Of a DNA stretch of 64,000 bases, positions 36,382 to 44,009 are shown one piece after another. Below the pieces are notes generated by a model that searched no databases, was not told the origin of the DNA, and saw nothing but the letters and a program-made list of their open reading frames with translations. Each line of letters begins with the position of its first letter. Within the stretch, counting starts at the first letter, position 1. The stretch is from an uncultured Bacteroidota bacterium (GTDB lineage Bacteria > Bacteroidota > Bacteroidia > Chitinophagales > Saprospiraceae). Where the stretch lies: positions 1 to 64,000 of the forward strand of contig CACLQQ010000005.1 in assembly GCA_902609095.1 (NCBI GenBank), read 5' to 3'. A program made the position numbers and the translations under genes.

Positions 36382-36397
36382 TGTTCCACGTGGAACA
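36382..36397. promoter_or_regulatory. parS centromere-like site, perfect palindrome
   Basis: TGTTCCACGTGGAACA is a perfect 16-base palindrome differing from the canonical parS TGTTTCACGTGAAACA only by the symmetric T/C and A/G pair at one position in each arm. ParB binds such sites and, with ParA, segregates the newly copied origin. It lies in the 200-base gap before the M1 peptidase gene. parA and parB are not in the window. Confidence 0.8.
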
Positions 36398-40013: not shown

Positions 40014-41118
40014 ATGTATCAAATAAAGGCTCTTCATTTATACTTAATTTTTTTCTATAGTTACGTAGCGCAAATTAGCTCTGTAACAAGAGATGTAGCA
40101 GGTAATAATCTTACCACAGAAAGCCAGAACTGTTTCTATGAAAGCCAATCTAGCTTTAGCAACACCATCGCATCTTATAATATTTTATGCGAGTTTTTCA
40201 GGACAAAGTAATATCTCCGGCACATACAATAATTATTTAGTTCTCGGCGCAGGCAATAGTCATAAAACTAAATCTTATAATAACTATTTCATCTCCTATT
40301 TTGGCAATAGTGACTCTTTAGATGGGGATAATTGCGCTTATGAACATTCTGGTGCTTTCTGGAATTCTAGTTCTTATAATAGTTTATATGGTTACAATTT
40401 TATTTAACTAAATTCTGGAGACTATAGCTCTGTTTTTGGATATCAAACTGAATATAGTAACGACGACGACTTTAATCGCTTTTTTAGATCTAATTCACGA
40501 TACCAATCAAGAGGCGGTTCTCATAATTTCTTTGGTTCCTACTAAAGATATAACAATACTACTGCCCGATATAACAGTTCTTTTGAAAACGCTTCAGGGT
40601 AAAACAATTCAACCAAAGAATTCAATAGTTCCTTCGGACAGTTATCAGGACTAAAAAATACAACGAGTCCATACAATATCGTCATCAGTTATAGAGCATG
40701 TCCAATTAGCAATAACAGCAACAAGCACCTAAGGCTTAACATGGATGTAAATACTTCAACTAACAATGCGAGCGACGCACCTCTCATCTATAAAGAATTC
40801 GACAATCACTTTATCAAGATTAATGGCACCTTTAAAGTTACTGGTAGTGTCAATAATTCTTCCAGCAAAACTCTGAAAGAACGATTCAAAACCGTATATC
40901 CACAATTATTCCTATATAAAATTACCCAACTTACCATAGATGTATGGTCATACAAAGAATATCCTAAAAGCCGACATATCGGTCCCATAGCGGAAGAATT
41001 CTCTCAATCGTTCCGTTTAAGCAACAACGAACAAAGTATTTCTACTATTGGTGTCACAGGAGTTGCTTTAGTGGCCATAGAAGAACTTAAGAAAGTAAAC
41101 GATCAAATAAAATCTTAG
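40014..41118 (+). pseudogene. Decayed S74-chaperone tail-fibre-like secreted protein
   Basis: A signal peptide (LHLYLIFFYSYVAQIS) and SVTRDVAGNNLTTESQN lead, after one frame change near 40180, into a long frame of Asn/Ser/Phe/Gly repeats (SSVFGYQTEYSN, NSSFGQLSG) like the beta-helical head repeats of YadA-type or tail-fibre proteins. The C-terminus (SRHIGPIAEEFSQSFRLSNN, STIGVTGVALVAIEELKK) is the S74 intramolecular chaperone fold typical of Saprospiraceae surface proteins. From 40138 to 41118 the frame is continuous, broken only by three TAA codons; the terminal TAG may be a fourth, since coiled-coil sequence continues after it. Confidence 0.7.
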
Positions 41119-42000: not shown

Positions 42001-43077
42001 CTACTCAGACACAGACTGATACTTAATAACGAAATAATGATACAGCAAAGAAGACAGAACAATCACAGCAACCCCTTGATGAAACACGCCCCATAAAACC
42101 GGTATATGTCCGATGCTCTGCAATAGAGTAATTATACCTAAGAGTATTTGTATTAATACTACTCCTATTACTATCATAAAACTCACTCTCATGGATATAC
42201 TAATATTATTCCGAAACCACCAGTAATACACACCTAAAGCCATAACAATAAGATATGCCAATCCTCTATGAATAAAGTGTATTAATGAAAAGGTAAAACT
42301 ACCCGAATCATAAAAGATCAAACTATCAAGCGACCACAGTGACGAGTCACCCAATACTGATGGAATTATTTCTCCACCGATATCTGGCCAAGTGGGAAAA
42401 ATCATAGAAGCCTTCATACCGCTCATAATACCACCGAAGAATAACTGAGCACAAATCAGTATGATCAGATACATAGCTGATCGGGACTGTTTATTAGATG
42501 CTGCAACTTCTCTTCCTCCATGAATATATCCTAAGAAGGTCCACCACAACATAGCAAAAACACTAATTCCAATAGATAAATGAACCGATAACTTATAGGC
42601 ATTTACCCATGGTCTATTCACTAATCCGCTTGCAACCATGATCCAACCAAATATGGCAGCTAATCCAGCCAGACCAACAACCTTAGCAAGATCAGATTTT
42701 ACTTGTTGTGTTAACCATTTCTTATACCAAAAAAATAGGAATGGAAATAGAAAAACAAAACCCATACTTCGAGCCCATAACCTGTGAAAGTACTCCCAGA
42801 AATATATGAACTTGAAAGTGCCCCCTTGAAAAACGTGATCACCTAATTCCATACCCTTATTGATCTTGGCATACTGTGGAGTCTCTTTGTACTTATCAAA
42901 TTCTTCTAACCAAGAGACATCATTAAGAGGAGGCAATGTCCCAGTTACAATTTCCCACTTCGTTATAGATAGTCCAGATCCAGTCAAACGAGTTATACCA
43001 CCAATTATAATTTGAAAGTATACCATTACTAAACCTATGATTAACCATACTGAAACCGCTTGCCGTACCTGTATCAT
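42001..43077 (-). CDS. ctaA: Heme A synthase (COX15/CtaA)
   Basis: A 358-residue inner-membrane protein with eight hydrophobic spans. It has the family start (VMVYFQIIIGGITRLTGSGLSITKW), a WEYFHRLWARSMGF His pair, the GLVNRPWVNAYKLSVHLSIG segment and HFIHRGLAYLIVMALGVYYWW and GVFHQGVAVIVLSS with the other haem-ligating histidines. It oxidises haem O to haem A for cytochrome oxidase. The cytochrome oxidase genes themselves are not in the window. Its start borders the candidate origin region. Confidence 0.94.
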   Translation of the reverse strand: MIQVRQAVSVWLIIGLVMVYFQIIIGGITRLTGSGLSITKWEIVTGTLPPLNDVSWLEEFDKYKETPQYAKINKGMELGDHVFQGGTFKFIYFWEYFHRLWARSMGFVFLFPFLFFWYKKWLTQQVKSDLAKVVGLAGLAAIFGWIMVASGLVNRPWVNAYKLSVHLSIGISVFAMLWWTFLGYIHGGREVAASNKQSRSAMYLIILICAQLFFGGIMSGMKASMIFPTWPDIGGEIIPSVLGDSSLWSLDSLIFYDSGSFTFSLIHFIHRGLAYLIVMALGVYYWWFRNNISISMRVSFMIVIGVVLIQILLGIITLLQSIGHIPVLWGVFHQGVAVIVLSSLLYHYFVIKYQSVSE

Positions 43078-43559
43078 AACTCAAAAATAGTATCAATTCT
43101 TGCTACATGATATATGGCCAAATTGTCCACATTGTTTTTACTAATTATTAATTAATAAAAAAAAAATCATCATTATTAGTGCCGTTTAAATGTGGAAAAG
43201 TAATTAGGCGAATCCTTTATCAACTTAATCTAGTCACTTACTAACATAGTCATCTCATCCATCAGTTGTTGATGCTCAAGTTTTTATATATAAATCTTGT
43301 GAATTACTATGGATTTATAAACAGAGTCATGTTTAAAATAATAAGAGACAACTAAATGGCAATAAAAGTGGATAAAATATATCATTGTGAATAATCACCA
43401 AGGGTGTCTGCTAACATAACGTACCCTGAATTTAGATTATGTATAACTTGTTATTAAAAGTGGAAAAGTGACTATCATATAACCCTGATTATAAGTGATA
43501 AACATATTTTTAATTTTTAATATGTTTGTAATACTCAAAATAGGTATATCCATAAGATA
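43078..43559. other. oriC: Candidate replication origin (AT-rich, DnaA-box-like cluster)
   Basis: A 482-base, very AT-rich gap between divergent ctaA and dtd. It contains TTGTCCACA (43123-43131), TGTGGAAAA (43191-43199), AGTGGATAA (43367-43375), TGTGAATAA (43386-43394) and AGTGGAAAA (43459-43467). The second and fourth fit TTWTNCACA exactly on the minus strand, the others with one mismatch. Runs such as TTAATTAATAAAAAAAAAATC could serve for unwinding. Supporting context: parS sites 7 kb away and a change in strand G/C bias near here. Against it, the ribosomal-protein genes to the right are transcribed toward it. Confidence 0.5.
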
Positions 43560-44009
43560 ATGAGAGCGATCATTCAAAGGGTAATAGGGGCCAGTGTTGT
43601 AGTAGATAATCATACAGTAGGATCAATAGATAATGGTCTATTGATTTTTCTGGGAATAGCAAAAGAAGATCAGAAGGATGATATAGATTGGCTTGTTAGA
43701 AAGATCAGCCAACTACGTATTTTTTCTGATGATGAAGGTAGGATGTATAATAGCTTATTGGATAATCATGGGTCTGCATTGGTTATATCACAATTTACCT
43801 TATTTGCCTCTACTAAGAAAGGGAATAGACCATCATTTATACATGCTGCTAAACCAGATATGGCCATACATATGTATGAAATGTTCATTCAAGAAATGAA
43901 AGATCTCGGGATAACAACAGAAACTGGAATATTTGGTGCGGATATGGCGATTCAATTAACTAATGATGGGCCAGTTACTATACTTATAGATACTAAAAAT
44001 AGAGAATAG
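43560..44009 (+). CDS. dtd: D-aminoacyl-tRNA deacylase
   Basis: A 149-residue DTD that hydrolyses D-amino acids wrongly attached to tRNA. The protein opens MRAIIQRVIGASVVVD and has the two active-site blocks SQFTLFASTKKGNRPSF and NDGPVTILIDT (Gly-cis-Pro motif). Length is standard. Its stop overlaps the GTG start of the MazG-like gene by one base, so the two are coupled. Confidence 0.96.
   Translation: MRAIIQRVIGASVVVDNHTVGSIDNGLLIFLGIAKEDQKDDIDWLVRKISQLRIFSDDEGRMYNSLLDNHGSALVISQFTLFASTKKGNRPSFIHAAKPDMAIHMYEMFIQEMKDLGITTETGIFGADMAIQLTNDGPVTILIDTKNRE

Follow-up and report, generated by a model that had tools for sequence, protein, structure and literature searches.

The window, a 64-kb stretch of DNA forming part of contig C5 of a Saprospiraceae MAG, contains a 482-bp intergenic region from which COX15/CtaA and dtd are transcribed in opposite directions. 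A first-pass annotation of the same DNA had placed it, rightly, in the Bacteroidetes, had described the divergent genes correctly, and had put forward the region between them (hereafter the gap) as a candidate chromosomal origin. The features discussed below are as follows.

36382..36397, no strand: parS palindrome TGTTCCACGTGGAACA, predicted ParB centromere site, 6.7 kb from the gap
42001..43077, minus strand: COX15/CtaA, heme A synthase family (Pfam PF02628, 5e-78), left flank
43078..43559, no strand: candidate oriC, the 482-bp region between divergent COX15 and dtd, with AT-richness, a DnaA-box cluster and the window's cumulative G-C minimum (43263)
43082..43089, minus strand: TATTTTTG, fits TAnnTTTG, probable COX15 promoter
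43123..43131, plus strand: DnaA box TTGTCCACA, 1 mismatch, beyond the AT-rich unwinding stretch
43150..43179, plus strand: DnaA-trio run of ten 3'-NAN-5' triplets with the end TAG (3'-GAT-5' beside the boxes), putative AT-rich unwinding element by the criteria of PMC8287927
43180..43182, plus strand: spacer TGC, 3 bp separating the trio run from the paired boxes, of equal length in relatives
43183..43191, minus strand: degenerate trio-proximal DnaA box (CGTTTAAAT on the plus strand; TGTGGATT- or TGTTAGTT-like in relatives)
43191..43199, minus strand: DnaA box TTTTCCACA (TGTGGAAAA on the plus strand), the stronger of the tandem pair
43367..43375, minus strand: DnaA box TTATCCACT (listed at 43367 as AGTGGATAA), 1 mismatch
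43386..43394, minus strand: DnaA box TTATTCACA (listed at 43386 as TGTGAATAA), fits TTWTNCACA
43459..43467, minus strand: weak DnaA-box-like sequence TTTTCCACT (listed at 43459 as AGTGGAAAA)
43521..43528, plus strand: TATGTTTG, fits TAnnTTTG, probable dtd promoter, kept in the three-species alignment
43560..44009, plus strand: dtd, D-Tyr-tRNA deacylase (Pfam PF02580, 2e-55), right flank

Each flanking gene has a probable promoter at its own edge of the gap. Both promoters fit TAnnTTTG, which is the consensus of the Bacteroidota -7 promoter element; a sigma-70 scan gave no more matches than were found in shuffled sequences. A perfect 9-bp inverted repeat (AAACATATT/AATATGTTT, 43500-43527) lies beside the likely dtd promoter, and a short ORF at 40741-41118 on the plus strand gave a weak match to Peptidase_S74 (endosialidase chaperone), barely above the Pfam cut-off. 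To the right, 5-9 kb off, the rplM-rpsI-rpsB-tsf-pyrH operon (51977-48740, minus strand) points toward the gap, head-on to the presumed rightward fork, and such a placing near oriC is unusual for a highly expressed operon. The orientation had been reported correctly and had been held against an origin; we dismissed this objection because the same gene order around the gap, with the facing ribosomal operon included, is kept in both congeners, in one of which (G001) the GC skew switches here.

A DnaA-dependent oriC requires an AT-rich unwinding region and a cluster of DnaA boxes beyond chance, and both are found in the gap. Of all 480-bp stretches of the window it has the lowest GC (26% vs 37.7%), in line with the earlier claim that no long intergenic region of the window is richer in A and T. 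All of the five DnaA-box-like sequences that had been reported within 350 bases are present, starting at 43123, 43191, 43367, 43386 and 43459 and spanning 345 bp; two of them (43191 and 43386) do fit TTWTNCACA exactly, and the perfect box TTATCCACA is absent among the five. A 21-bp direct repeat (43186-43206 and 43454-43474, 86%) contains the weak box at 43459..43467. Four boxes in the gap lie within one mismatch of TTATCCACA; dinucleotide shuffles of the gap predict 0.26, and not one of 5000 shuffles reached four. This density, four boxes in 272 bp, was matched by none of 200 shuffles of the whole 64-kb window, in which no 300-bp window held four boxes. On the other hand, the strict-box count alone does not single out the gap in the host genome: TTWTNCACA occurs at 233 places in the host assembly vs 220 for the reversed control, so that the motif is not enriched, and at least two other close pairs of strict boxes (C9:3684/3725 and C17:758/1041) are found among the first 100 of the 233 places listed.

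Because the host genome is a MAG of 2.76 Mb in 144 contigs and 59% complete, relatives were used for the further tests. A comparison of the gap in related genomes, which had been proposed at the outset, revealed a conserved DnaA-trio/DnaA-box unwinding module that was absent from the first-pass annotation. The module (43150-43199) is the most conserved block of the gap; it begins with 3'-NAN-5' trios that have ...TTATTAG as their end, and these are followed by a 3-bp spacer, a degenerate box and a good box. When the gap was aligned among three congeners, 67.5% of the columns in 43160-43199, the top 40 columns of the alignment, were identical in all three vs 31% overall. According to the published BUS rule, at least three 3'-NAN-5' trios lie no more than 16 bp from a DnaA box (PMC8287927); here ten trios lie 11 bp from the box at 43191-43199. 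The boxes are in tandem as in the BUS, with the distal box the closer match and GAT proximal, the proximal box being very degenerate in the window and clearer in the relatives. The arrangement resembles the BUS of the Bacillus subtilis oriC (PMC6669920, PMC8287927), which has tandem boxes (strong distal, degenerate proximal), a short spacer and at least three 3'-NAN-5' triplets from GAT, whereas the module predicted here has its 3-bp spacer after the proximal box and is linked to COX15.

With up to 3 mismatches allowed, the window's version of the module is matched nowhere else in the 2.76 Mb host assembly. In 80 Saprospiraceae loci we found the module by a hand-made score, which was tuned on some of the same loci and is therefore partly circular; it lies mostly 95-300 bp upstream of COX15 and on the strand opposite COX15, and scores of at least 16 occurred 34 times in origin regions vs 3 times in 1.2 Mb of background. 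A whole-genome scan with the family consensus, which is a less circular test, gave 43 family places, 31 of them, in 31 genomes, 95-528 bp upstream of COX15 and all 31 in the same orientation, with 5 further places upstream of dtd in genomes where COX15 lies apart or was not found. The module keeps to COX15 in G058 and G020, and to dtd in G043, G044, G051 and G036, genomes in which the two genes are separated or COX15 was not found; in G058, a closed genome outside the training loci, it is located at 2,052,334.

The position of the candidate origin is likewise conserved among the relatives. In many genomes of the family COX15 (minus strand) and dtd (plus strand) stand on either side of a gap about 470-1700 bp long, and COX15 is the steadiest neighbour across the family. 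When 23 orthologous COX15-dtd gaps were pooled, they contained 89 boxes vs 9.4 expected. Over 80 Saprospiraceae loci the number of boxes per kb falls from 6.9 in the 500 bp nearest to COX15 on its upstream side to 2.1 in the following 500 bp and to about 0.4 beyond, and at least three boxes in 1 kb were found at 61 of 74 loci. The scan for boxes elsewhere that had been suggested separates the spot from surrounding unrelated DNA, in which the density is about 17-fold lower, but not by strict boxes alone, which are not unique to the gap.

In part of the family the 80 loci (L086-L165) show a second box peak between +500 and +1500 relative to the start of COX15, made up largely of tandem boxes 12 bp apart just past the COX15 stop codon, and at least two boxes lie within 400 bp after the stop at 24 of the 80 loci. 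The origin could therefore be bipartite or wider than the gap, the cluster downstream of COX15 belonging to it in part of the family and the host perhaps needing sites outside the gap as well. We consider this unlikely: the window and its two congeners have no box after COX15, and the trio-linked module is located upstream of COX15 in nearly all loci.

Proximity of parS to a bacterial oriC is common, not universal, and a parS site is found nearby in the window and, at a distance of a few kb, in most relatives. The palindrome had been correctly placed 6.7 kb from the gap, and it is the only exact parS in the host assembly. Exact sites are present in 81 of 101 genomes, 1-5 in each, and where contigs allow they lie about 1-30 kb from COX15 or the module; 37 of 80 loci have parS inside their 10-kb flanks, in many cases 4.2-4.6 kb beyond the start of COX15, and G058 has four at 2.040-2.045 Mb, beside its COX15 gap.

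Within the window the cumulative G-C minimum falls in the gap at 43263, although divergent genes alone could produce such a minimum. The host MAG is too fragmented for whole-chromosome skew, and skew was sampled in relatives. In the closed genome G058 (4,345,237 bp), presumably Saprospira grandis (Lewin), the mean skew of 39 evenly spaced 20-kb samples was -0.026 up to the COX15 gap (2.052 Mb) and +0.021 past it; COX15 starts there at 2,051,806 with about 18 boxes upstream. The switch at this pre-specified gap was significant (t-test p 0.0005), and when every possible two-arm split was allowed, the best fit had its origin in the interval from the 1.99 Mb sample to the 2.10 Mb one (permutation p 0.038). 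For G001, a congener, 22 samples cover the 1.22 Mb up to the gap; 21 were negative (mean -0.049), and the skew was positive past it, but only 36 kb of the contig remain there. Elsewhere in the family the skew is weak and approximate only: the sampled minimum of G018 misses the gap by about 30-70 kb on one side, G034 has two dips, the second and slightly deeper one about 90 kb away, and G020 is nearly flat. These three are weak or only roughly in place and are not taken as proof. The cumulative-skew check proposed for the candidate, when carried out on relatives, was thus borne out at the orthologous gap by the minimum in closed G058 and by the one arm of G001, the negative one, that ends there, and was rough or weak in the other three.

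The location next to dnaA is common for oriC, not defining, and it is not the case here. In G058, dnaA is at about 1.35 kb, about 2 Mb from the COX15 gap and near the opposite pole, and in G001 it is at C11:285 kb, 936 kb off and within the negative arm; neither place has a skew switch. The G058 record itself starts at dnaA, nearly opposite the skew-defined origin. In all nine relatives where dnaA was sought and found it is located elsewhere than the gap, and it was not found in the 2.76 Mb host assembly, which is 59% complete. Throughout the Saprospiraceae this very probable origin, with one shared motif for DNA opening, occurs at the COX15-upstream spot, far from dnaA, the gene at which origins are commonly looked for.

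Promoters and titration sites, too, carry DnaA boxes, and two probable promoters lie inside the gap; the boxes might then form a regulatory site bound by DnaA, either a DnaA-controlled COX15 or dtd promoter or a locus that, like datA or DARS, serves titration or reactivation, with the true origin elsewhere. This is very improbable, because both G058 and G001 have a skew switch at the orthologous gap, the gap holds the trio/box unwinding module and has parS beside it, and the module stays beside COX15 or dtd where the pair is separated or COX15 was not found. A purely regulatory DnaA site was rejected on the skew switches and on the recurrence of box enrichment in relatives. A chance cluster, to which the AT-richness of the gap and the other close strict-box pairs (at least two among the first 100 of 233) might point, was rejected as next to impossible, since dinucleotide-preserving shuffles do not yield it, enrichment recurs at the same place in tens of diverged relatives, and the module scan finds the same spot.

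These independent lines, namely the skew of relatives, the box density, the conserved module and parS, agree in pointing to the COX15-dtd gap as the chromosome replication origin, as the first-pass annotation had proposed. The probability of this is roughly 0.94. The points against it are the weak skew of the family, the head-on ribosomal-protein operon 5-9 kb off, and the boxes of the host species, few and none of them perfect. The gap is very probably a DnaA-dependent oriC of the known kind, unlinked to dnaA and linked to COX15. Its elements are conserved, lie at the skew minimum in relatives and are linked to parS; DnaA binding, unwinding and firing would proceed here by analogy with other bacteria. 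DnaA-ATP would first occupy the strong box (43191-43199) and its degenerate neighbour, and from there it would polymerise over the 3-bp spacer and along the run of ten DnaA-trios (43150-43179). The AT-rich DNA would open toward COX15, allowing helicase loading and the departure of two forks, while the boxes at 43123, 43367, 43386 and 43459 would serve to concentrate DnaA locally or to control firing. In other bacteria, parS near the origin is known to mark the part of the chromosome that is segregated first (PMC7333895), and ParB loaded at the parS 6.7 kb off would likewise cause new origins to be segregated first.

The gap resembles the DnaA-dependent origins predicted by Ori-Finder and collected in DoriC (PMC10225481, PMC6323995) in its box cluster, AT-rich intergenic location, GC-skew minimum and nearby parS, but unlike the usual ones it is not beside dnaA, the indicator gene being COX15 (ctaA) and the gene on the opposite flank dtd. 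The oriC of Melioribacter roseus, of the Bacteroidetes/Chlorobi group, was also predicted from skew and DnaA boxes, but is located between dnaA and dnaN (PMC3534657). Neither the COX15-dtd location, unlinked to dnaA, nor the family-wide module appears to have been described; a literature search of partial coverage, with DoriC entries (e.g. Saprospira grandis) outside it, gave no description of a Saprospira or heme A synthase-linked origin.

The COX15-upstream gap with its trio/box motif offers an origin marker for a large and mostly uncultured family whose MAGs are fragmented and whose skew is weak, and such a marker allows read-depth estimates of growth rate, correct genome orientation and oriC plasmids for genetics. 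As dnaA of the closed relative is nearly opposite the origin, numbering from dnaA can err by half a chromosome in the Saprospiraceae.

It is possible, though we would sooner doubt it, that the module is the ancient fixed core of the origin of the whole order, whose sequence, spacing and orientation are kept while flanking genes change, COX15 and dtd being merely the usual neighbours, and that the origin is bipartite around COX15 in a subclade. Hints of this are the box pairs downstream of COX15 and the presence of the module motif near parS in other families of the order, at G084:C6:169168 (1.3 kb) and G099:C36:46121 (1.7 kb).
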